Origin: Zanthoxylum bungeanum
Lineage: Eukaryota; Streptophyta; Magnoliopsida; Sapindales; Rutaceae
Direction: 5' to 3'
Length of the DNA stretch: 64,000 nucleotides
NCBI GenBank assembly: GCA_019454045.1
Contig: SKCR01049663.1
Span: 185,359 to 249,358 of the forward strand
Of the stretch, positions 27,011 through 46,545 are shown piece by piece (position 1 is the stretch's first letter; the number at the start of each line of letters is the position of its first letter). The translations under genes and the position numbers were made by a program. Under the pieces are notes generated by a model, which made no database searches, was not told the origin of the DNA, and saw only the letters and a program-made list of their open reading frames with translations.

Positions 27011-28786
27011 TGTTGGACAATTATGACCCACAACATCACTATTTGTAAAGAACATTGTGTTTTTGTACAAATTAACTATGTGACAAAAGGAAATTGCTAT
27101 TTTATCATTATTGTAATTAGATTACTTGGATATATAATGATAAAAGTCCATATGGTTAAATCAGATTAATAAGATATGAGACAATATTAATCCACGAACG
27201 GTTTAATCATTAAATATCCCTAGTCGTAGTATTATTGAGACTGGACAATGATAATGCGAAATAGACTAGTATTACACTTGTGCGCGTTATGGAAGCTTAA
27301 CGACATAGTTCTCATATATTTAGGTATTGGAGACTTATGCAAGTGTAATAAGAGGTTATGTTAGCCGTTGGACCGGGAATAGTTTCGCTCTGGATAGACC
27401 CCATCAGAATCTCATTGGTAGTATGACTATGTGTCTATGGGAATCCGAATCAGGGTAGGTGTATGTGATCTTTAACCTGAGACTTACATCGCTATTAATT
27501 GCGACAATCAGTTTACTTTGATATTGGTCGCTTGGAGCTTTAACAGGTTATGTGTACGCATCTATTGTTTACTGAGAATCGTAGTGTATTGGATGTGATG
27601 TCAAGATGAGAGTATCACTTCAGTCATATGGAGATGATGGTCACACATGATACGGAACTAGTACTCTTAAAAGCTGCAGCTATCGGGAAAGTATGACTAG
27701 GTCATGACTTTCCGATTACAGAGACTAGTTACTCGGGATCCGATATATGCTTCGTACGGGGCAGACACAGAGCCAGCCCTATGCCTTGCATGTGACATCC
27801 GATACTGGATCGTATTACACATTACATTGTATTACTACGCCTGATACATATTATATTCCTCGGTGAATATTTCTGGAGAATTGGGTATGCACGGTGCTTT
27901 GCTAGAAGCCAACCATATCTTCTAAATCGATGAGAACGTGGTACGGGATACACACGTGTTCGGATGGTCTGATGACCGTATTTACTGCCAATATATCCAG
28001 GAATCTCTTGGGTCGCTTCCCAAAGATTCACCAATGACATTTGACTCATATAGAATTAATAAATGATTAATTGCGGCAAGAATTAATCTGGGATTAAATT
28101 CGTATAGAAGAGAGAAAGCGATTAATTTAGAATAAATCGATAAAATAAATATATCGGATATATTAATTGAAATTGGATTTCAATACGAAATTAAAATTGG
28201 ATTTTAATTCGGGCGAACGAAATAATTTGGAATTAATTCGAAAGCGACAATCGTAATAATTTTGCGAGGCATAATTATTTAATTAAATTGAATTTAATTA
28301 TGTCGTGACGACAAATTCGTTTAATTTGGAATTAAACGAACCCGGGCCCAAGTCTAGTTGTGTGTTGAAGAAGCCAACTTAAATTTTGAATTTAAAAATG
28401 GTGGGACCACTTGACTTACATCAACTTTAGACATTTGATGGAAGTTGTTGGCCTTAATAAATTGGATTCATTAACACACACAACAACCAACTTTTGGAAC
28501 TCACTATTCACTCTTCTTTATTTCCTCTCAATTGCCGATTCTTGCTCTATTGAAAGGGAAAATTTTTGCTTCAAATTTTCTCAAAGCTAGCACTTGGAGA
28601 GTCTTATGAGGTGTTAGGGAAACTCACCCAATGGTCAAACAACAAATCAAAAGCTTGGAGCTTTATCCATTCAAAGAAATTTCGAATTTCTCACAAAATC
28701 AATGTAAGTCATTCCGCAACTTTTACTTGATTAATTCACATACAAATCATGTTTAAAATCTTGGAAGCATATCTTAGAGACTAACA
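27011..28786 (+). repeat. 3' LTR of Copia B3
   Basis: TGTTGGACAATTATGACCCA at the start and ACTAACA at the end; preceded by the polypurine tract AAGTGGGAGAT. 1776 bp, somewhat shorter than the 1892-bp LTRs of B2. Confidence 0.88.
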
Positions 28787-29934
28787 ATAATGAAGTTTTA
28801 GAAAGATTGGTTTTAATAGCATAAGTTTTGAGATTTTCGGAGGCATGGGGGAATAAACCCACTTCAGTATGTAACTTATGGAATTGACGGATGATAAATG
28901 CACATGTAGAGGACTAGAGGGACGATGATACGTAACGCCCCCAGATTCTAGTTCAGGAGTAGGGATAACAGATGCCCCTAAATCTTATTTTAGAGTTTGG
29001 AGGGTAGCATAGATCTGCACCCCCAGTTTCTAGTTCAGTGGCTTGAGGGACAACGATACGTAACACTCGAAGACCACTAGTTTCAGGGACGAGAGTGGCA
29101 TGTTTTGGGGGACGGCGATACGTAACGCCCCAAAGTCATGAATTTGTATTTCTAGCTCTAGTTAGGCATATGAGGGGAAGATGATACGTAATGTCCCCAT
29201 ACGTCAGGTTTTCAGATACATATATCAGTTTTTAGAAATAATTTTCGGATACAGTTTTCAGAAAAGTTCCAGAGAAAAGTTTTCTAGAAATAAATATTTC
29301 TAGAGAATGCAGTTTATAAGAGATTTCCAAAAAAAAAAACAGGTTTTAAAAAAAAAAAAAGTTTTCCAGAAAGAAAGAAGTCTTTCACTTTATAAAAGAG
29401 ACTTTCAAAAAAAGATAAGTTTTACAAAAGAGTTTTCAGAAAAGATTTTCAGAAAAGAGTTCAGAGTTTTCAGACCAGAAAAGAGTCTTTCATATTTAGC
29501 TATTTTTGAACTTTGGTTTTAAAATCAAATATTTTCATAACAGTATTTCAGGTTTCATTTTAAATTGTCCACTCACTTAGATCATTCAAACGATCTAACC
29601 CCTTCCAGTGTTTTGTTTTGCAAGTAGTTTCGAAGGAAGAGCTCGAGGGGACGAATACTGATAGCAGTCACTAGTGGGTTTAGTCCACCAGGTCAAGTTA
29701 GAGACAAAGTCTAGTTCAATTAGAGTCAGGAAGTAGCATGTAATATACATATTGGATAGTGAAGATTTCTTATATATTGCATTGTAGTAACCATTGTCAG
29801 AGTTACAATATGTATTAAAACAGAGTATTTAGTATTAAAAGAGTTATGCATTCATGATTGATGAGTTGGGCAATGGCCCCAATGCATGAGTTTATATGTG
29901 AGATAAGAATAGCAGATGTCAGAAGTCAGAGGCT
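28787..29934 (+). mobile_element. Remnant Gypsy-type LTR G, left part (split by D1)
   Basis: Contains four copies of GATACGTAACG or a close variant (28927, 29055, 29117, 29183), each near GGGG/CCCC runs, then an A-rich stretch (29310-29420). The right end appears to resume at 39436-39486 (TACGGCCTATTTCCTGCCGG). An inverted relative is at 42891-43720. The ends resemble chromovirus-type LTRs in general style only. Confidence 0.5.
28920..29205 (+). repeat. Four spaced copies of a GATACGTAACG element
   Basis: Copies at 28927-28937, 29055-29065, 29117-29127 and 29183-29193. The third lies in GGGGGACGGC...GCCCC, which can fold into a GC-capped hairpin; the others are weaker versions. Confidence 0.65.
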
Positions 29935-30837
29935 TGACCGGCGTAAACACACACGTATAACGTAAGCGCACGTATCGTTCAAGTAGTATAAAAAGTATCG
30001 ATCCCACGAGGACTTAATATCTTTTCTATTAATTTTATGAGGTCAAATGATTACTAGTATCTAACAGGTTGTTTGATTGATTTGAAAAGGTGACGATTCT
30101 AAATTTAAAAATAAGTAAATAAAGTTGTCGAAAATAGGTTTTAAGAAAATTCAATATTAAAAACTATCTAGGGTTGTGATTTCTTCCAATATCATTTTAA
30201 AGATGAAGTGGTTATCTTAAAGTTGGGTAATATATTGATTTATTAACCTGGAACACTAAATTATGTGTAAGCCTCTGTCGATGGTCAGACACAAATACCC
30301 AGTTTAACCCAATTGAATCATATGTCTATGTCAACCAAATTATCTGGATTCATTAAGTTTAAGTTCCAATTATGGCTACCCCCGCCCGACAGGTATATTC
30401 CTATCCTGTAAGGAAATCTATTAAAGGGTTATCTATCCTCAAGGAAGATCGTGGGCTATTAAGTCTAAGGCTGAAACCTAAAATCCCTATGTCTAGTTCA
30501 TTTTAGATTTACCAGATCAATTTTATTAATGGCCAGTTAATGAAAAAGCATTAAGTTTAAGACTCAATAAATAAATATTTATATTACCCAAGCTATAATC
30601 TAACCCTTATAAAACGTGATATTGGATTTCATCACAACCCCAGATAACTAATTTAGTTACAACACATAACTAGGGCTAGTAAAAACTTGAAAATAAAAGA
30701 CATAAAGTAAAAATGCGGTAAAGTAAATACTGAAAAGTAAATTACAATAAAATAAAATGCTAAGGTAAAAGGAATTACTTTTACTACTACTAATTTAGAT
30801 ATCTCCCATAATATAATATATAAACTTGTGATAACAT

Positions 30838-31045
30838 TACCAACCAGCCATATAGGCGGTAACCTGATTAAGTCAAATTAAGTCCAACTGGCCATTAAGG
30901 CGGTAAAAAGATTTATCCATGAACCTGCCATATAGGCGGTAAGAAATTTTAATTACCAACCGACCAATCTGGCGGTATCCTTGATTAGTCAGGTTAAAAC
31001 CAGATTAAAATGAATTACCAACCGACCAATATAGCGGTATCCTTT
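30838..31045 (-). repeat. Short hairpin repeats (GCCATATAGGCGGTAA type) in the D1 3' LTR
   Basis: Five spaced degenerate copies of CCAGCCATATAGGCGGTAA. Several can self-pair through GCC/GGC around an ATATA or ATTAA loop. They lie downstream of the LTR TATA box, so they would be in the transcript. The same array is at 38265-38472 and, in D3, at 59022-59165. Confidence 0.8.
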
Positions 31046-31370
31046 TTAAGTCAATATTTTAAATAGTGAATATATTATATTTAAGGGAGATTAATCTAAA
31101 TAGCAATAGTAAAAGAATTACCTTTCACCCTAGCTGGGGAAGTTACCTCCTCATTACTGAAAAGTAAAAACTGAAAAATTAAAGAAAGAAAAGTACTGTG
31201 CGTAAAAGTAAATTGCGGAAAGTAAAAACTGAAAAGTAAAGAAAAGAAAGTGCGAAACTGAAAATTAATTACTGAAAACTAAAAATAAACAAACTAGATA
31301 CAATCTTCTTATTTATTCATTAAGAATTTCAAAGAAGAAAGTATGAATTTTACAAATGAAATGGCTTGGT

Positions 31371-31377
31371 ATTTATA
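31371..31377 (-). promoter_or_regulatory. TATA box in the D1 3' LTR
   Basis: CTATAAATACC on the minus strand fits the plant TATA consensus; the same site in the 5' LTR is at 38801-38807. Confidence 0.75.
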
Positions 31378-31998
31378 GGCAAAATTTTGCCACCATCAAA
31401 TCATCCATCAAATTCTCCACCAAATCCATTATTAATATCTCCACTAATTACTCCACCAAATCCATAATTGCTCCACTAATTGCTTATCTTGTTTGGTGTT
31501 GATTTGATAATTTTTATTAATTATTAATTAATTAATATTTTGTTTTGAAAATGATTGATAATGACTTTTAATAATTACAATCCACACACTTCTGGATGGT
31601 TCATCCATTTCGGTCATGAAATCATCAGAATTCGAAAATATTTTCTCTTTCAAAGTTGTAGAACTTTGAGTCTTCTTTAATCTGGCACTTGAATCAGCTC
31701 AATCCGATATCTGAGTAAAAAGTTATGCCCAAAATACAACAGATGCACAAAACTGGAATTTCCAAAACTGCACTTCGTCAAAACGCCCTTTCAAGTTTCC
31801 AATCTCCAAAATTAAAATATCAAGTCCAATAATTGCCTTATTTGACCCATATTTCATCCTAAATGATTTCATTAAGACCCGATATTATTTTATCTGCAAA
31901 ATAAACTAAAATATATCAAAACGTTCATCAAACCTGAGAAACTAAACAAAATATTAAGTAAAAGGGGCGGTAAATATTGATATATTTTCCGCTCATCA

Positions 31999-32010
31999 CA
32001 CCCCCAAACC
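31999..32010 (-). other. Polypurine tract of D1
   Basis: GGTTTGGGGGTG on the minus strand directly precedes the 3' LTR, as required for plus-strand priming. D3 has the identical tract at 60205-60194. Confidence 0.85.
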
Positions 32011-32578
32011 TAACATTTTGCTAGTCCTCGAGCAAAACAACAAAATAAAATACAAGAAACAATTAAAATTAAACTAAGCCACTTTCGTAGGGATCACGGT
32101 TGCATTTAGCGTATGCAACAAGCCTTTAAACCCCTAGGTGTCCCTAGTGGACGAGTTGTAGTCTCGTGAGGGTTTACAGCAATGATACCCACAAACATTT
32201 TTACAAAAGTAAAAAGTTAGTTAAAACTAATGCACACAAAAGCAAAAAGACAAGCGAAAAGAGAATAAAGATGTTAGTGACTAATCAGGTGAAACTTCTA
32301 CTCCAAGTTACTAGTTGTTTTGTTTTATTTTAAATTACTGAATAAGTAAATTCTCCGATTATTTTTACCATTCTTCATATACATGGCCAACAAAATATTA
32401 ATCAATTTATTTTTGCCCACAACAGTCATAAGTGTAGTTGATAAGAGAGTAATATTTTTGTCCTAAAGTTCTATCAGAGTTCACACCTTTTTTATAGCAA
32501 TGGAATAATTTTTCTCATTTTTCTGATTTTTTCTTTGATTTTTCTCTATTTTTTATTTATATACAATATCTTCTGTCT

Positions 32579-32804
32579 ATGTAGCGAGCTTTGGGTCGGT
32601 GGCTCCCAAACCAGTTGGCTTTAGGGCACCAGGTGTTAAGACACCCCTACGGACTTAATTACTCAGACTTCAAATATATATATATTTTTTGCAGCATCTT
32701 TGATCCATGTAACGAGCTTTGGGCCAGTGACTCCCAAACCAGTTGGCTTTAGGGCACTAGGTGTTAAAACACCCTTACAGACTTAATAACTCGGATCTCA
32801 GACG

Positions 32805-32805
<1 letters not shown>
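32579..32805 (-). repeat. Two copies of a ~95-bp unit, spacing 128 bp, in the D1 3' noncoding region
   Basis: Units at about 32579 and 32707 share GCGAGCTTTGGG, CTCCCAAACCAGTTGGCTTT and a GGTGTTAAxACACC hairpin. D3 has the same pair with the same spacing (60753 and 60881), so the duplication predates their divergence. Confidence 0.85.

Positions 32806-32832
<27 letters not shown>
32806..32832. repeat. Poly(T) run
   Basis: An uninterrupted run of about 27 T. D3 has shorter, broken T runs at the same place (about 60977-60995), so length is unstable. Confidence 0.9.
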
Positions 32833-32835
<3 letters not shown>

Positions 32836-32854
32836 CCATTGCTTTTTGAGATGA

Positions 32855-33070
32855 TTCCTCCAATTAAACTAGAGCACTGAATATTACAAACTTTTCAATT
32901 TTAGCTCATGTCCGTATGTTACCATGTATGTTGATAATATCTGTCAACTGAACATATGAAGCTTCCTCCAATTAAACTAGAGCACTGAATATTACAAACT
33001 TTTCAATTTTAGCTCATGTCCGTATGTTACCATGTATGTTGATAATATCTGTCAACTGAACATATGAAGA
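32855..33070. repeat. Perfect-looking 108-bp tandem duplication
   Basis: Copies 32855-32962 and 32963-33070 are identical over nearly all their length. D3 has a single copy (about 61017-61125), so this arose in the D1 lineage. Confidence 0.9.
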
Positions 33071-33461
33071 TTCCTTTTAGTCCGTTTTATGGAGAATTTA
33101 CAAATTAAATAATTCAAAATGAAATAAACAAAAATTAACTTGTTTCGAAATAGGTTTGAGATACGTCTCAGAAGTGGAAACTCCTTACTCAGCTATCTTT
33201 TACCAATTTCACCTTTTTAGTCAAATTAAAAACACAAAAAAAAAACACAAAATATTTTTGTAATTTTTGAAAATTTTCCAATTTTTTTGTATTTTTCGAA
33301 AATTTTTGGACTAAAAATAAAAACAACATTCAAACTAAAAACAAGGTACTAATCAACTAATTTCCTCCCCCAAACCTAAATGAGACATTGTCCCCAATGT
33401 CTTAAACAGTAAAAGGAGAGTTAAGAAGGTTGTACCTGGTTAGCTGAAAATCTACAGGAAA

Positions 33462-34115
33462 TTAAAGGTTAAGATCCAGATTAATCCGACGCCTCTTACC
33501 ACGATCGTCCTCGGACCAATTTATCTTTGAAAGGATAAGGTCAACTTGTGGTTCATAGGCTAAGAGTTGGTCTATTAGATCCGGAGCAGTTCTGGCAGTA
33601 AATAGGAGTTCTTTCAAAGGTTTTGACACGAACCCATTTCTTCGAGCATCATCAAGAAACACACAAAGAAAATCATAAAACCCATCAACATTGAGCAATC
33701 CAAGCGGTTTCTGGTGTATGTTCAGGTTCGCCCAAGATAGTACTATAAAAATTTCCTCCAATGTGCCCAAGCCACCTGGCAAAGCAATAAAAGCATCAGC
33801 ACGGTTAATCATTTCTACCAGTCGTTCAGACATACCTGGCACGATCAGTTCCTCTCCGTTTGATGATCCAATAAGATTTGCCTCTGCCAAGGGTTTTGGG
33901 ATGATTCCCAAAACGTGACTGCCTCCTTCCTGTACAACCTTTGAAACGATCCCCATAAGTCTAAGATTGCCTCCGCCATATATTAAGTGCATATTCCTTG
34001 CTGCTAAGACTCGACCCAATTCCTGTACTGCCTCTACGTATTGTGGCTTAGTACCAATACTACTACCGCAAAACACACAGATGTTTTCAACTCGTCTTCT
34101 TGAAGTGGCTTCCAT
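33462..34115 (-). CDS. LOG-like: LOG-type cytokinin-activating phosphoribohydrolase carried by element D1
   Basis: Uninterrupted 217-residue frame. LOG enzymes cleave cytokinin nucleotides to the active free base and ribose 5'-monophosphate. The Rossmann-like lysine-decarboxylase-type fold is recognisable: ICVFCGSS at 12-19, YGGGNLRLMG at 46-55, the conserved Arg98 in SERLVEM, and PGGLGTLEE at 113-121 with Glu121 (plant enzymes usually read PGGYGTLEE). Arg98 and Glu121 are the family's active-site pair. Residue 52 is Arg where the family and the D3 copy have Gly in the nucleotide-binding loop. After the usual end, a tail GKRRRINLDLNL adds a basic cluster and an LxLxL (EAR-type) motif. Plant LOG genes have several introns; this copy has none, so it is a captured retrocopy. 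I chose the ATG at 34115 because D3 starts at the same Met; the frame extends upstream without an ATG. It occupies the Athila env position. Confidence 0.9.
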   Translation of the reverse strand: MEATSRRRVENICVFCGSSIGTKPQYVEAVQELGRVLAARNMHLIYGGGNLRLMGIVSKVVQEGGSHVLGIIPKPLAEANLIGSSNGEELIVPGMSERLVEMINRADAFIALPGGLGTLEEIFIVLSWANLNIHQKPLGLLNVDGFYDFLCVFLDDARRNGFVSKPLKELLFTARTAPDLIDQLLAYEPQVDLILSKINWSEDDRGKRRRINLDLNL

Positions 34116-34171
34116 TTTATGTATTTCTTTCTCAACTCGGGATGCCTTCAAAAGTGCAATGACGGGCTGAA

Positions 34172-34184
34172 TTTATAGTACCTG
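34172..34184 (-). promoter_or_regulatory. Possible splice acceptor and TATA-like sequence before LOG (D1)
   Basis: On the minus strand a pyrimidine run ends CCCTTTTCAG at 34182 and is followed by GTACTATAAAT, about 66 nt before the LOG start. The same arrangement is kept in D3 (acceptor at 62211). It could be the 3' splice site of a spliced LOG message, or a core promoter. Confidence 0.35.
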
Positions 34185-34253
34185 AAAAGGGTGAGTAAAA
34201 ATAGCACAAGTATCTTCCAGAGGACGATTAGTAGCGAAATAATATCGTGATAG

Positions 34254-34433
34254 TCAAAAAGGTCTGGATCCTGCCAATCGGACTCGTGCTTCAATTACCC
34301 AACGAATATCATTAGGAATACCATGGATCGTCAGTAGTCTCATTCGTTCCAAGCGAGCTTTGTAAACTTTCATGAGAGATTTTTGAGGGAGAGAAGGAAA
34401 TTGCTTGCGAAGATTTGCGAGAGCTTCTTCCAT
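34254..34433 (-). CDS. Small unrecognised open frame upstream of LOG in D1 (59 aa)
   Basis: ATG at 34433 opens a Leu/Arg-rich, basic 59-residue frame beginning MEEALANLRKQFPSLPQ. I do not recognise it. D3 is colinear with D1 only up to about 34280 and has no matching frame, so it may be chance or a relic of deleted pol sequence. Confidence 0.25.
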   Translation of the reverse strand: MEEALANLRKQFPSLPQKSLMKVYKARLERMRLLTIHGIPNDIRWVIEARVRLAGSRPF

Positions 34434-34571
34434 CTTGAAATGACTAAACCTGCAAAAATTAAACACACAAAAATAAAACACACCAAATCACAATATATAC
34501 ACAAATTGCATGGGTTGCCTCCCTGCTAGCGCTAAGTTTAAAGTTGTCAGCCAGACTTGGCTTCTCGAACG

Positions 34572-36989
34572 TTAAGTTGGATCTGAAAGTGTAACACTTT
34601 CTTTTTGTCGCTCAAATGATTCTCCCCAGTAGTGCTTGACACGCTTGTTTTTAACCTTGAAAGTTTTGTTAGCGTCAGGATCATGTATCTCAACGGCTCT
34701 ATTTGGTAAAACTTTGGTGATCACAAATGGACCTGACCACCGTGATTTTGGCTTCCATGGGAAGAATTTCACCCTTGATTTGTTTAACAGTACCTTCTGC
34801 CCTGGTTCCAGTTGTATGCGCACTAACTTCTCATCATGTCGTTTCTTGCCCTTTTCTTTGTACAATTTGGCATCCTCAAAAGGCTGATTGTGAAATTCCT
34901 CCAATTCGTTGAGTTGGTGGAACGTTTTATCTTCTGTTGCTTGTAGTGCAAGAATTGGCTCCTTCAGTACAAAAGACGCTTTATCTTTAGGCTCCACAGG
35001 CAATTGACATGTTTTAAGTTTGTCAGTAGAACTTTGTCTTTCATCAGAGTTCTGAATGGTACTGTGTATCACATCAAGTCTGAAACATTCCTCATTCTTT
35101 TCATCATCTGGGAAATTCATGGCCTTGAAAACATTGAATGTTACTTCTTGGTCCTGTACCCTCATGGTTAATTCTCCTTTTTGTACATCAATAATGGTTC
35201 GACCTGTAGCCAAGAATGGTCTCCCAAGGATGATTGGTACGTCTGCATCTTCCTCCATATCAAGGACAATAAAATCTGCTGGAAAAATGAATTTGTCAAC
35301 CTTGACCAGCACATCCTCAACTACACCTCTCGGAAATACGAGCGTTCTATCAGCAAGTTGTAGTGAGACTGATGTTGGCATTGTTTCTCCAATCTGTAAT
35401 TTCCTGAAAATAGAAAAAGGCATCAAGTTAACACTCGCACCTAAATCACACAAAGCCTTACCAAAGTTATGTTCTCCTATGACGCAAGGAACAGTGAAAC
35501 TGCCAGGATCTTTCAACTTTGGGGGAAGTTTCCTCTGAATGATGGCACTGCATTCTTCTGTTAATGCTACTGTCTCGTAATCTCCCAATCTCCGTTTTCG
35601 TGAAAGAATATCTTTCATGAATTTGGCATAGGTGGGCATTTGTTCCAACGCTTCTGCAAATGGAATGTTGATATGCAGCTTTTTGAAGATCTCCAGGAAC
35701 CGAGAAAACTGCTTGTCCAATTTGTTCTTCTGAAGACGTTGAGGAAAATGTGGAGGTGGAGTGATCTGTTCTTTTTCCTTTGCTTCTTTTTCCTCCATCT
35801 GTTGCTTTGTTTCTTTTGGAACTTCCTCAGCAGTTGTTTTGGCTCCAACATCTTTGTTGATTTCAGTACCGCTTTTTAACATGATGGCATGACATTGCTC
35901 CTTCCCCATGTTCCTTGGATTTGGCTCTGTGTTGCTAGGAAGGGTACCTGGCGGTCTGTAACTCTGAGCATTGGCTAGTTGTCCGATTTGATTCTCTAGT
36001 GCTTTGATAGAGGCTGAATGGCTTTGAAATATAGTGTCATATCTTGCTGCTTGAGAGTCGTGTTTTGCTTCCATCTTTTTCAAGTAGGTCAACACTTCTG
36101 TTATTCCTGATTCATTTGCCTGCTCCTGGCCTTTGTTCTGTTGCTGGAATTCAGGTGGATAGTTCTGCTGTTGGCCTGAATTGTTGCTCCATGATAAATT
36201 AGGATGATTCCTCCACCCTGGGTTGTAGGTGTTGGAATATGAATTGTTCCCTTGTCTGTTGAAATTGTTGACATAATTCACCGTCTCTTCATGTTGGTTT
36301 GGTTCTGGTGCTCCTCCATATGGTGAACTTGTGGATCCAGTGATGTTCATAACTTGCGTGCTAAGTGTTTCTAGACATTTGCATATCTGATCCAGCCTGG
36401 TATTCACTGCTGTGTTTGCTCCAACTTCATAAATTCCTGCAATTCTTTGGATCATGCTCCTTTCTGTTGGCCACAAGGAATTGTTGTTGGCCATTTCTTC
36501 GATTAGGTCCCAGGCTTGATCTTCTCCTTTTGCCATCAAGGCTCCTCCAGCAGCAGCATCAATTGTGGTTCTCATTATTCCAGAAAGTCCATTATAGAAT
36601 GTTTGAACTTGTAGCCACTTTGGAATCTCATGGTGAGGACATTTCTGGAGTAAATCTTTGTACCTTTCCCAAGCTTCGCAGAGGGATTCTGAATCTTGTT
36701 GTACAAAGGATGTGATGTCATTCCTCAATTTTCCGGTTCTGGCTGGTGGAAAGTACTTTGCAAGAAATTTGGTGGCTAAAGTGTTCCAAGCTGTGATAGA
36801 ACCTGCTGGTAGTGAATGTAGCCAAGCTTTAGCTCTGTCCTTCAAGGAGTATGGAAAAACTCGCAGTCTCATTGCTTCTTCAGCTTCTCGGTTGTAATTA
36901 AAAGTGCCGCAAACTTCCAGGAAGTTACTGATGTGGGCATTAGGATCTTCAGTTGCATTCCCCCCAAATTGAACTGACTGCTGAATCAT
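34572..36989 (-). CDS. Athila-like gag-protease fused to an integrase C-terminal tail (805 aa)
   Basis: One open frame. Residues about 1-175 are the retrotransposon gag capsid domain (phrases FLEVCGTFNYN, AKAWLHSLP and YFPPARTGKLR). Residues 175-480 are a Gln/Asn-rich linker with predicted coiled-coil stretches near 295-340 and a charged Glu/Lys run near 390-410. Residues about 495-625 are a retropepsin-like protease with active site DLGASVNLMP (Asp515) and IILGRPFL. Residues about 700-790 match the C-terminal tail of Athila/Gypsy integrase (PGQKVLL, RWSGPFVITKV, NKRVKHYW). The junction near 690-705 is in frame, so a deletion removed reverse transcriptase, RNase H and the integrase core while keeping the ends. 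The CCHC zinc knuckle usual in this family is missing. The capsid start lies upstream in another frame (see 36986-37234). Confidence 0.88.
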   Translation of the reverse strand: MIQQSVQFGGNATEDPNAHISNFLEVCGTFNYNREAEEAMRLRVFPYSLKDRAKAWLHSLPAGSITAWNTLATKFLAKYFPPARTGKLRNDITSFVQQDSESLCEAWERYKDLLQKCPHHEIPKWLQVQTFYNGLSGIMRTTIDAAAGGALMAKGEDQAWDLIEEMANNNSLWPTERSMIQRIAGIYEVGANTAVNTRLDQICKCLETLSTQVMNITGSTSSPYGGAPEPNQHEETVNYVNNFNRQGNNSYSNTYNPGWRNHPNLSWSNNSGQQQNYPPEFQQQNKGQEQANESGITEVLTYLKKMEAKHDSQAARYDTIFQSHSASIKALENQIGQLANAQSYRPPGTLPSNTEPNPRNMGKEQCHAIMLKSGTEINKDVGAKTTAEEVPKETKQQMEEKEAKEKEQITPPPHFPQRLQKNKLDKQFSRFLEIFKKLHINIPFAEALEQMPTYAKFMKDILSRKRRLGDYETVALTEECSAIIQRKLPPKLKDPGSFTVPCVIGEHNFGKALCDLGASVNLMPFSIFRKLQIGETMPTSVSLQLADRTLVFPRGVVEDVLVKVDKFIFPADFIVLDMEEDADVPIILGRPFLATGRTIIDVQKGELTMRVQDQEVTFNVFKAMNFPDDEKNEECFRLDVIHSTIQNSDERQSSTDKLKTCQLPVEPKDKASFVLKEPILALQATEDKTFHQLNELEEFHNQPFEDAKLYKEKGKKRHDEKLVRIQLEPGQKVLLNKSRVKFFPWKPKSRWSGPFVITKVLPNRAVEIHDPDANKTFKVKNKRVKHYWGESFERQKESVTLSDPT

Positions 36990-37234
36990 CTGAATGCATG
37001 TTTTGATGTCACATGTATTTGCTGGTAAGGAGGAAGTACAATACAGGAAATGAGTCTGTCAACCATCGGAATGGTTCTGTCTCGAATGGGAATTGGTGGT
37101 GCAACGTTCAAAGGTTCAGGTTCCATGTTGACTAAAGCTTCTTGGCCTTCTCGCCTTTCCCTTCTCAACTGTCTGATGGTTCTTTCAATTTCTGGGTCAA
37201 TCGATCGGAGTTCAAAGCTTCTGGTTCGTCTCAT
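36986..37234 (-). pseudogene. N-terminal gag segment of D1, out of frame with the body
   Basis: ATG at 37234 begins MRRTRSFELRSIDPEIERTI, an Arg-rich start typical of Athila gag. Around 37030-37060 the homologous reading moves to the frame that yields ANTCDIKTCIQMIQQ and joins the 805-residue body. A single frameshift therefore separates the start from the capsid, unless the body initiates internally at 36989. Confidence 0.7.
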
Positions 37235-37340
37235 GTAGTTTCTGAGAACCTGAAACACAAGAAAACAACGACAATAAGTAAAAAGAAATTAGATACAAGT
37301 AACGTATCTAACCCCTAAATTAATAGTGAAAGATAAATAA

Positions 37341-37359
37341 CTCCCCGGCAACGGCGCCA
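37341..37359 (-). other. Primer-binding site of D1 (tRNA-Asp type)
   Basis: TGGCGCCGTTGCCGGGGAG on the minus strand, 6 nt after the 5' LTR. This is the classic site of Athila/Tat-lineage elements. Confidence 0.88.
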
Positions 37360-37365
37360 AAAACT

Positions 37366-39429
37366 TGACCGGCGTAAACACACACGTATAACGCAAGCGC
37401 ACGTATCGTTCAAGTAGTATAAAAAGTATCGATCCCACGAGGACTTAATATCTTTTCTATTAATTTTATGAGGTCAAATGATTACTAGTATCTAACAGGT
37501 TGTTTGATTGATTTGAAAAGGTGACGATTCTAAATTTAAAAATAAGTAAATAAAGTTGTCGAAAATAGGTTTTAAGAAATTCAATATTAAAAACTATCTA
37601 GGGTTGTGATTTCTTCCAATATCATTTTAAAGATGAAGTGGTTATCTTAAAGTTGGGTAATATATTGATTTATTAACCTGGAACACTAAATTATGTGTAA
37701 GCCTCTGTCGATGGTCAGACACAAATACCCAGTTTAACCCAATTGAATCATATGTCTATGTCAACCAAATTATCTGGATTCATTAAGTTTAAGTTCCAAT
37801 TATGGCTACCCCCGCCCGACAGGTATATTCCTATCCTGTAAGGAAATCTATTAAAGGGTTATCTATCCTCAAGGAAGATCGTGGGCTATTAAGTCTAAGG
37901 CTGAAACCTAAAATCCATATGTCTAGTTCATTTTAGATTTACCAGATCAATTTTATTAATGGCCAGTTAATGAAAAAGCATTAAGTTTAAGACTCAATAA
38001 ATAAATATTTATATTACCCAAGCTATAATCTAACCCTTATAAAACGGTGATATTGGATTTCATCACAACCCCAGATAACTAATTTAGTTACAACACATAA
38101 CTAGGGCTAGTAAAAACTTGAAAATAAAAGACATAAAGTAAAAATGCGGTAAAGTAAATACTGAAAAGTAAATTACAATAAAATAAAATGCTAAGGTAAA
38201 AGGAATTACTTTTACTACTACTAATTTAGATATCTCCCATAATATATATATAAACTTGTGATAACATTACCAACCAGCCATATAGGCGGTAACCTGATTA
38301 AGTCAAATTAAGTCCAATTGGCCATTAAGGCGGTAAAAAGATTTATCCATGAACCTGCCATATAGGCGGTAAGAAAGTTTAATTACCAACCGACCAATCT
38401 GGCGGTATCCTTGATTAGTCAGGTTAAAACCAGATTAAAATGAATTACCAACCGACCAATATAGCGGTATCCTTTTTAAGTCAATATTTTAAATAGTGAA
38501 TATATTATATTTAAGGGAGATTAATCTAAATAGCAATAGTAAAAGAATTACCTTTCACCATAGCTGGGGAAGTTACCTCCTCATTACTGAAAAGTAAAAA
38601 CTGAAAAATTAAAGAAAGAAAAGTATTGTGCGTAAAAGTAAATTGCGGAAAGTAAAAACTGAAAAGTAAAGAAAAGAAAGTGCGAAACTGAAAATTAATT
38701 ACTGAAAACTAAAAATAAACAAACTAGATACAATCTTCTTATTTATTCATTAAGAATTTCAAAGAAGAAAGTATGAATTTTACAAATGAAATGGCTTGGT
38801 ATTTATAGGCAAAATTTTGCCACCATCAAATCATCCATCAAATTCTCCACCAAATCCATTATTAATATCTCCACTAATTACTCCACCAAATCCATAATTG
38901 CTCCACTAATTGCTTATCTTGTTTGGTGTTGATTTGATAATTTTTATTAATTATTAATTAATTAATATTTTGCTTTGAAAATGATTGATAATGACTTTTA
39001 ATAATTACAATCCACACACTTCTGGATGGTTCATCCATTTCGGTCATGAAATCATCAGAATTCGAAAATATTTTCTCTTTCAAAGTTGTAGAACTTTGAG
39101 TCTTCTTTAATCTGGCACTTGAATCAGCTCAATCCGATATCTGAGTAAAAAGTTATGCCCAAAATACAACAGATGCACAAAACTGGAATTTCCAAAACTG
39201 CACTTCGTCAAAACGCCCTTTCAAGTTTCCAATCTCCAAAATTAAAATATCAAGTCCAATAATTGCCTTTATTTGACCCATATTTCATCCTAAATGATTT
39301 CATTAAGACCCGATATTATTTTATCTGCAAAATAAACTAAAATATATCAAAACGTTCATCAAACCTGAGAAACTAAACAAAATATTAAGTAAAAGGGGCG
39401 GTAAATATTGATATATTTTCCGCTCATCA
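37366..39429 (-). repeat. 5' LTR of D1
   Basis: 2064 bp, the same length as the 3' LTR with about a dozen small differences by eye (for example single-base indels near 37580, 38046 and 39268). Contains the hairpin-repeat array at 38265-38472 and TATA box at 38807-38801. The bases just outside it (39430-39437, CACCCCCA) repeat the polypurine-tract side of the internal region. Confidence 0.95.
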
Positions 39430-39435
39430 CACCCC

Positions 39436-39486
39436 CAGAGAAATAATACGGCCTATTTCCTGCCGGTAACATCTCCCAGATCGGGG
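39436..39486 (+). mobile_element. LTR G, right end
   Basis: CAGAGAAATAATACGGCCTA and following bases match the reverse complement of 42891-42945 (CTACCGGTAG-type end), identifying the far side of the LTR into which D1 inserted. Confidence 0.5.
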
Positions 39487-44653: not shown

Positions 44654-46545
44654 TGTTGGACAATTATGACCCATAGCATCACTATTTGTAAAAGACATGA
44701 TGTTCTTTGTACAAATTAACTATGTGACATAGGAAATTACTCTTTTATCATTTTGTAATTGGATTACTTAGATATATAAATGATAAAAGTCCATAAGATT
44801 AGTACCGGATTAATAATATATGAGACAGTATTAATCCACGAAAGGTTTAACCATTAAATATCCATAGTCGTAGTATTATTGAGACTGGACATCGATAATG
44901 CGAAATAGGCTAGTATTGCACTTGTGCGCGTTATGGAAGCTTAACGGCATAGTTCTCATATATTTAAGTATTGGATACTTATGCAAGTGTGATAGGAGGT
45001 TCTGTTTACCGATGGTACGGGAACAGCTTCGCTCTGGATAGACCCCTCAGAATCCCATTGGTAGTATGACTATGTGTCTATGGGAATCCGAATCAGGGTA
45101 GGTGTATTTGGTCTTAACCTGATACTTGCATCGCTAATACTTGCGACAATCAGTACGCTTTGGTTTTGATCGTCTGGGGCTTTAACAGGTTATGTGTATG
45201 CCTCTTTTGGGTATACTGAGAATCATAGTGTAATGGGTGTGATGTCAAGATGAAAGTATCACTTCAGTCATATGGAGATGATGATCACGTAGGATACAGA
45301 ACTAGTACTCTTAAGTATTACAGTCATTGGGATAATATGACTAGGTCATGATTATCCGATTATTGAGACTAGTTGCCAGTGATCTGATATATGCTTCGTA
45401 CGGGGCAGACATAATTCCAGCCCTAGGCCTAGCATGTGACATCCAATACTGAATCGTAATACGCAATACTTAGTATACTACGCCTGATAAAGATTATGTA
45501 TTCCTTAAAAGAATATTTCTGGAGAATTGGGTAGGCACGATGCTTTGCTAGAAGCTAACCATGTATTGTAAATCGGTAAGAACGTGGTACTGGGTAGGCA
45601 CATATTCGGATAGTTCGATAACCGTATTTACTGCCAACATATTCAGAGATCTAATAGGTCGCTTCCCAAAGATTCACCGATGACATTTGACTCGAACAGA
45701 ATTAATCTGGGATTAATTATGAGAGAGAGAAAATTAATCTAGGATTAATTCCGGCAAGAATTTATCTGGGATAAATTTAAAATTGAAGAGAGAGAACGAT
45801 TAATTTGGAATTAATCGATTAAATAATATATTGGATATATTAATTGAAATTAGATTTCAAAGCGGAATTAAAATTGGATTTTAATTCGGGCGAACGAATT
45901 AATTTAGAATTAATTCGTAAGCGACTTTCGTAATAATTTTGCGAGGAATAATTATTTAATTAAATTAGATTTAATTATGTCACAACAACAAATTTGTTTA
46001 ATTCGGAATTAAACAAACCCGGGCCCGAGCGAAGTTGCGTGTTGAATTTGCCGACTTAAATTTGGAATTTAAAAGTGGTGGGACCCATTTCACTTATATC
46101 AACTTGTTGGACATGTGATGGAAGTGGTTAAGCTTAATTTATGGATTTGATTTGTTGAATGTAAGGCTTGCTTAACTTCTAAAACACTCAAACCCATTTC
46201 AACACACAAACTTTGTATTTAATCTAAGTCAACTTTGGAAGTAAAGGAGAGTTACTATTCACAGCAAACTCTTTCTTCTTCCTTTGCTCTTGTCGTGAGC
46301 TTCTTCCTCCTCCATTGAAGTTTTGTTGCAAATTTTCATTTAGCTAGCACTTACAAGGAGTCAATTAAGGTGATAGGGAAACTCACCCGAGAGTTTGGAA
46401 CACGATTTAAAGCTTGGAGCTTCTACATCCAAAAGAAGTTTTGAAATCCTAAAACCGATCAAAGTAAGTTTTTTCGCAACTTTCTTCGATTAATTCACAC
46501 ATGAATCACGCTTAGAGATCCCGTGACATGTCTAGGACACTAACA
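44654..46545 (+). repeat. 5' LTR of Copia B2
   Basis: TGTTGGACAATTATGACCCA to GGACACTAACA, 1892 bp; same length as the 3' LTR. Confidence 0.93.

Follow-up and report, generated by a model that had tools for sequence, protein, structure and literature searches.

A high-copy Athila-like Ty3/gypsy family of Zanthoxylum bungeanum carries, in its env position, an intronless LOG-derived gene with an altered pocket and an LxLxL tail

Plant retroelements carrying a LOG-like gene are not without precedent, as Athila-like elements with similarity to LOGL4 were reportedly described by Steinbauerova et al. in Genetica in 2011 (doi 10.1007/s10709-012-9654-9). A YgdH (LOG) domain is also found in Gypsy consensuses from two Citrus species and, unfiltered, from Populus trichocarpa (PMC9289625, where the 2011 paper is cited for the same domain). 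These Citrus/Populus elements resemble the one analyzed here in being Ty3/gypsy elements with the LOG domain as an extra ORF, whereas an LxLxL tail, pocket loss, a CRP-like ORF and pol-less high-copy forms go unmentioned in the available portion of that paper. A parallel is offered by the Ty3/gypsy elements of orchids that encode an AlkB RNA demethylase (PMC9289625), in that an enzyme domain has become fixed as an extra ORF and is proposed to help the element, although both the enzyme and the host are different, and in vitro activity was shown there. The suggestion of the initial annotation, made from the sequence alone, that no element of this kind had been described thus does not stand: LOG in such elements is already known. 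The present analysis adds the tail and the loss of the pocket, the apparent order of the two, the companion ORF, the selection on LOG and the pol-less high-copy members, none of which was found in the literature searched, in which few subscription papers were covered. No title or abstract opening among those listed dealt with an LxLxL tail or with LTR elements having a carlavirus-CRP-like ORF, and the same search returned no functional account of LOG-bearing Gypsy elements. Two further groups of known proteins are relevant to the comparison. Canonical plant LOGs (AtLOG3, 2a33; AtLOG8, 1ydh) share with the LOG described here the fold, the PGGxGTxEE motif and the Arg98/Glu121 pair, whereas the latter is intronless, has His96/Lys99/Glu124 replaced and Leu in place of Tyr116, and ends in a basic + LxLxL tail. 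Carlavirus cysteine-rich proteins (CRPs; PF01623/PF05515, e.g., CVB p12) provide the models matched by the companion ORF of the element, which, unlike them, sits in a retroelement (~182 aa) and is represented in our window by a 55-residue remnant only.

The window, i.e., the whole 64,000-nucleotide stretch of contig SKCR01049663.1 that was analyzed, harbors an element spanning 29932-39435 on the minus strand, flanked by a 5-bp CAGAG target site duplication read at both flanks (29927..29931 on the left and 39436..39440 on the right). Its 5' LTR (37363..39435) and 3' LTR (29932..32004), delimited by the identity of the pair and the junction letters to within 1-2 bases at the edges, are 99.47% identical over 2076 aligned bp (7 mismatches, 4 gap openings), differences so few that the element must have been inserted recently. 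Read in the direction of the element, with all of its parts on the minus strand, the 5' LTR is followed by a primer binding site read from the sequence (TGGCGCCGTTGCCGGGGA, 37342..37359), which we take to be of the tRNA-Asp type, a 90-aa open frame without a Pfam match (36986..37258) that is probably the N-terminal gag in a different frame, and an 805-aa gag-protease ORF (34572..36989; delimited from the ORF list, Pfam and comparison with locus L017) fused to an “integrase-C-terminal-like” end, this name being our own, as no Pfam match was obtained for it. Then come the N-terminal residues 1-55 of a carlavirus-CRP/NABP-like ORF (34269..34433) that is longer in other copies, the LOG-derived ORF (33462..34115), about 1.4 kb without any listed ORF but with short tandem duplications, and the purine-rich tract (PPT; 32005..32018, minus strand ...GTTAGGTTTG, then the GGGG of the LTR edge) adjoining the 3' LTR. 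The LOG frame itself runs from an ATG at 34115 to a stop at 33462 and encodes 217 aa with no intron, so its description in the initial annotation as an intact, intronless ORF lying within an LTR pair, between the gag-protease gene and the PPT, was accurate; that annotation did not note that the frame is on the minus strand and has the Arg at residue 52 discussed below, nor that the element lacks the RT/RNase H/integrase core and retains part of a second extra ORF. RT, RNase H and the integrase core were found neither in the ORF list nor by the Pfam scan of the window copy, which, lacking pol and hence the complete autonomous set (gag, PR, RT, RNase H, INT), is non-autonomous. Two tandem duplications with units of 128 and 108 bp lie at 32557-33065, between LOG and the PPT. 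An older direct-repeat pair (27164-28408 / 44808-46085; pieces 83-95% identical, spacing ~17.64 kb) encloses the LOG element and is probably an older LTR element into which the LOG element was inserted.

Far from being a singular occurrence, the exact 35-nt PPT-LTR junction of this element occurs 5757 times in the 3.96 Gb genome, while its reversed control occurs 0 times. From approximately 100 listed junctions out of the 5757, 60 places, chosen without ranking by LOG, were inspected upstream: the first 20 (long loci, L009-L028) were plus-strand junctions with 10 kb of contig ahead, taken as they came in the list, and the next 40 (short loci, L029-L068) comprised 35 plus-strand and five minus-strand junctions. 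LOG DNA, the copies of which the initial annotation had proposed to count, was present at 45/60 of these junctions (16/20 long loci; 11/40 short loci lacked it), with 5/45 copies being of full length without an indel or stop. Extrapolation of the 45/60 to the exact junctions gives about 4,300 LOG-bearing places, a figure that duplicate contigs may inflate (contigs C62 and C3472, for example, have an identical LOG copy). All 150 of the best 150 genome places for the window LOG are at least 94% identical to it over the full or nearly full length, and 147/150 are stop-free, this being a ranked and, therefore, biased set. The LOG ORF is in this element family far beyond chance.

Some members of the family have retained pol. 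Locus L017 has ~2.8 kb between PR and the integrase-C-terminal-like end, with open pieces matching RVT_1, RNase H, Integrase_H2C2 and rve, its LOG being in the usual position, while L015, also carrying LOG, shows a similarly long spacing and an RVT_1 match. Among the 16 LOG-bearing long loci, this spacing is long in these two, undecidable in six and short, as in the window, in eight (L010, L013, L014, L018, L021, L024, L026 and L028), which makes the pol-less form, to which the window copy belongs, the commoner one in the sample. The four long loci without LOG are L011, L012, L020 and L025, and the two of these scanned for it, L012 (7909-8379) and L020 (7858-8442), have a Transposase_32 (PF20167) ORF roughly at the place of LOG ahead of the same PPT-LTR junction, which makes an exchange of extra ORFs at a fixed place possible; Transposase_32 is related to Athila ORF1 in PMC11728184. 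Athila elements commonly, albeit not exclusively, have an extra ORF after pol and ahead of the 3' LTR, and this place is taken here by LOG or, in L012 and L020, by Transposase_32. An additional RNase H (aRH) domain marks Tat and is absent in Athila (PMC6317226); the L017 pieces, as scanned with general domain models, show one RNase H region. The family is a high-copy Athila-like Ty3/gypsy one with LOG in the env position, some pol-bearing members included, and the initial annotation was right in assigning a LOG gene, here a spliced one in many copies, to the env position in an Athila-like element.

The 217-aa protein is matched by Pfam Lysine_decarbox (E 1.2e-34), its best PDB relative by sequence is AtLOG3 (2a33, E 5.7e-59), and its predicted structure has the LOG fold, with AtLOG3 again being the best PDB structural match (2a33, E 7.7e-20) and the nucleosidase PpnN being among the fold neighbors. 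The catalytic pair is in place (Arg98 and Glu121, as had been annotated from the start) and PGGxGTxEE is kept, as are Met95 and Trp128 of the pocket, whereas Ser96, Leu99 and Ile124 stand in place of His, Lys and Glu. The ORF ends in RGKRRRINLDLNL (basic patch + LxLxL), the terminal LDLNL fitting the LxLxL pattern that is one of the two defined EAR patterns (PMC9956375). Residue 52, within the GGGNxGLMG loop, is Arg (AGA) in the window copy; across 48 readable loci, this codon is GGA in 45, AGA in two (the window, i.e., L001, and L023) and GAA in one (L010), and Gly52 is present in 97/99 aligned element-type rows, with Arg in the other two, to which the window belongs. As this position is nearly invariant, the protein of the window copy itself may be impaired.

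To judge how general the changed pocket and the tail are, 99 rows (the window and 98 of the best 120 of 7683 database matches) were aligned, with 22 relatives, mostly fragments but also P0030 (212 aa) and P0042 (217 aa), being left out; the canonical comparison set consisted of the best 120 of 7998 matches to one LOG1/3-type query. Arg98 is found in 91/99 rows and Glu121 in 98/99, while the pocket residues are kept to very different extents (Trp128 in 98, Met95 in 85, His96 in 26, Lys99 in 12 and Glu124 in 12 rows). Lys and Glu of the adenine/prenyl pocket are both missing in 87/99 element-type proteins vs. 0/120 canonical LOGs listed, and MHxRK is seen in 12/99 vs. 120/120, with Glu likewise kept in 120/120 of the canonical ones. 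In CgLOG, the corresponding His97, Lys100 and Glu125 are three of the five residues proposed for the prenyl-group site, Lys100 also being assigned to adenine, and catalytic roles of the Arg and Glu of LOG are discussed in the same paper (PMC4979012). The C-terminal LxLxL is present in 75/99 element-type proteins vs. 0/120 canonical LOGs listed (when the tails were shuffled 1000 times, it appeared in 10.0 of the 99 on average and never in more than 19), a basic patch, defined by a loose pattern, precedes it in 96/99 vs. 9/120, and it is kept in 34/40 genome copies with a readable tail. The tail (residues 204-217) is predicted to be disordered (pLDDT under 50) and, among ten segments of the protein, has, narrowly, the fewest amino-acid changes per codon (0.07 vs. 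0.08-0.22). Gln takes the place of Arg98 in eight of the 99 rows (P0010, P0011, P0015, P0017, P0019, P0025, P0111 and P0114, three of which keep LxLxL), a hint from the alignment that the protein might do without catalysis.

A tree of 58 rows (42 of the 99 element-type proteins, 15 host LOGs and one bacterial outgroup on a long branch) puts the element-type LOGs into one group (94/96) beside, and not among, the host LOGs (90/95). Its earliest branches, Xanthoceras P0065/P0090/P0106 and then P0032/P0036, the node between which is weak (88/48), keep His/Lys/Glu and have no tail, P0048 has the full pocket and the tail together, and the remaining 36 rows (98/92) have Lys or Glu in none and the tail in most. 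Across all 99 rows, the tail is missing in 11/12 full-pocket proteins and present in 74/87 of those without Lys and Glu. Judging by these sequences, the apparent order in most of the clade was that the tail was gained first and the pocket lost afterwards. The proteins of the earliest branches may be host genes rather than element genes; querying the genome with P0065 gave at least 150 element-like full-length frames, none above 58% identity among the matches listed.

While the structure and history of the LOG element are well supported, its function is something we infer, and the reading tentatively favored here, at a little short of an even chance, is that the LOG protein has been neofunctionalized and is no longer a plain cytokinin activator but manipulates the host, probably in the nucleus. 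The family carries in its env position an old LOG copy derived from spliced RNA, often following a carlavirus-CRP-like ORF, and selection has kept this copy. The protein retains the LOG fold with the catalytic Arg/Glu and would have gained a basic + LxLxL (EAR-type) tail, after which Lys/Glu, and often also His, of the adenine/prenyl pocket would have been replaced in most of the clade. It would most likely be nuclear, engaging TOPLESS-type corepressors while binding or hydrolyzing a nucleotide that is not among the usual cytokinin ones, and the outcome would be to aid the expression or survival of the element. The EAR reading has to be tempered by LxLxL being a short motif and by synonymous change in the tail being low as well (0.044).

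The same protein could also be a cytosolic nucleotide phosphoribohydrolase of changed specificity, engaged in nucleotide clean-up or in the destruction of a nucleotide immune signal, with the tail being incidental; catalytic residues left in place beside a pocket that has changed around the N6 position would suit such an enzyme, as would the place of a nucleosidase among the fold neighbors, but we regard it as unlikely, for it leaves aside a conserved basic + LxLxL tail that is missing in the 120 canonical LOGs listed. The initial annotation called the gene cytokinin-activating, and an element encoding a working cytokinin activator could profit from local cytokinin, by which dividing cells that express and transmit the element would be favored. 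The fold, the PGGxGTxEE motif and the kept catalytic Arg/Glu, the purifying selection and the retention of His/Lys/Glu in the earliest branches of the clade would all agree with this, and, with most of the other pocket and catalytic residues kept (Arg in 91/99 and Glu in 98/99, Met95 and Trp128 in most), the proteins may still act on cytokinin nucleotides. That designation is, nevertheless, doubtful, and a working activator quite unlikely, considering the replacement of the pocket His, Lys and Glu by Ser, Leu and Ile in the window and the absence of both Lys and Glu from most relatives. Alanine at the AMP-binding/catalytic residues of CgLOG, one Ser excepted, nearly abolished activity (PMC4979012), and the window copy carries the Arg52 in its GGGNxGLMG loop on top of this.

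That LOG is retained through selection is evident from its substitutions. The dN/dS set consisted of L001-L008, which are the top copies by protein score and hence biased to low dN, and five open unranked copies, L001 being the window copy and L002 lacking the ATG; as L005 is the same place as L013, and L006 is identical to it, 11 distinct copies remain. Their 55 pairs give a dN of 0.026, a dS of 0.130 and a dN/dS of 0.20, and the 10 pairs of the five unranked open copies give 0.043, 0.153 and 0.28, respectively. Comparisons of the window with the divergent L029, L048 and L068 yield a dN/dS of 0.12-0.17 at a dS of 1.3-1.7, i.e., near saturation, and those with the remaining unranked copies yield 0.11-0.50 each, post-insertion decay included. 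Within the 20 long loci, the codon positions of LOG diverge from the window copy by.084/.055/.123 (16 copies), those of the N-terminal gag by.069/.048/.151 (nine copies), those of the protease by.066/.039/.138 (11 copies) and those of the integrase end by.111/.046/.133 (11 copies), whereas a non-coding stretch is flat under the same measure (.080/.073/.069; 15 copies); the third-position excess in LOG is like that of gag and protease, so LOG is kept much as they are. LOG is under purifying selection, acting through replicating copies. A LOG cDNA caught by chance and copied along without a function could account for 40/45 of the unranked LOG copies not being fully open, as is the case for any old insertions, and for the 15/60 sampled junctions with no LOG DNA, but a dN/dS of 0.12-0.28, a third-position excess that is missing from the adjacent non-coding DNA, and the retention of LOG in pol-bearing and pol-less members and divergent subfamilies make such a passenger very improbable, and it was rejected on this selection evidence.

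As for the LOG genes of the host, a whole-protein AtLOG3 query of the genome was swamped by element copies, while a query with one AtLOG3 exon separated the host genes, giving 29 places that are 54-94% identical, with the next ones at 48% or less (150 scored). The initial annotation had suggested looking for an intron-containing parent gene; in the three host regions fetched (L074-L076), LOG is broken up by introns (six in L075, according to the tblastn pieces), as had been expected of plant LOGs, whereas the element LOG is uninterrupted across the host intron junctions, implying passage through spliced RNA. With 50% identity to AtLOG3 in the structural alignment, the capture must be old. An ordinary LOG locus with chance LTR flanks has a negligible probability and is refuted by the target site duplication, the many intronless copies, all at a set spacing from the PPT, and the separate existence of the 29 host-type exon places and of intron-bearing host genes; the initial annotation had itself named this outcome, together with a lack of other LOG-bearing copies, as counting against it, and neither occurred. 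The host LOG of L075 has its nearest relatives, among the best 120 of 7998 matches, in Citrus (96%), Pistacia (95%) and Acer (94%), in line with a plant of Sapindales, the order to which Citrus also belongs. Five PGGYGT[LM]EE pattern matches considered as host genes were rejected, all being element-type copies with a changed residue.

The LOG gene is not the only extra ORF of these elements, since other copies have an ORF of ~182 aa between the integrase end and LOG (e.g., L013:7106-7660 and L010:7082-7666), which in L013 scores 30.2 bits against Carla_C4 (cut-off 20.9) and 29.6 against Viral_NABP (cut-off 23); it exceeds a model cut-off in four of the five copies scanned, L010 being below. 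This companion ORF is present in 11/16 LOG-bearing long loci vs. 0/4 long loci without LOG. It has 244 database relatives, those named among the best 120 being from Xanthoceras, Populus, Acer, Rhamnella and Orobanche, and in the Rhamnella protein P0225 we read an integrase-end-like stretch ahead of the CRP-like part. Its codon-position divergence from L010 is.078/.098/.145 (16 loci, L005 = L013 being counted twice), weaker evidence of constraint than that for LOG. Neither the LOG protein nor the CRP-like alignment yielded relatives when IMG/VR was scanned. Carlavirus CRPs have been reported as RNA silencing suppressors, and for CVB p12 weak suppression is reported along with a role as a transcription factor that brings about hyperplasia (PMC12172455); that the CRP-like protein of the element might act like them is a guess by analogy.

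Put together, these observations would fit an Athila-like lineage across rosids/asterids with a two-gene host-manipulation module in the env position, composed of a carlavirus-CRP-like zinc-finger protein and a LOG-derived nuclear protein in which the EAR-type tail was gained and the cytokinin pocket then lost, yielding a corepressor-linked nucleotide-binding regulator, a scenario that, taken as a whole, is possible but doubtful. Were it true, a plant retroelement would have turned a hormone enzyme into a regulator with a motif that some pathogen effectors share. The conserved tail, the apparent order of pocket loss and the CRP-like ORF make the question of why plant retroelements keep extra ORFs a testable one, and the data also suggest that some database proteins named LOGL10-like (e.g., in Populus) may be element genes and not hormone genes.

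A second LOG subfamily exists in the same genome: L077 (G000:C730:140500-141250) is 97% identical to the database protein P0006, which is, in turn, 76% identical to the window LOG protein. Identical LOG copies lie on different contigs in L005 and L006, and host LOG exons are often found on two to three equal-scoring contigs, a pattern as in a polyploid or unmerged-haplotype assembly.
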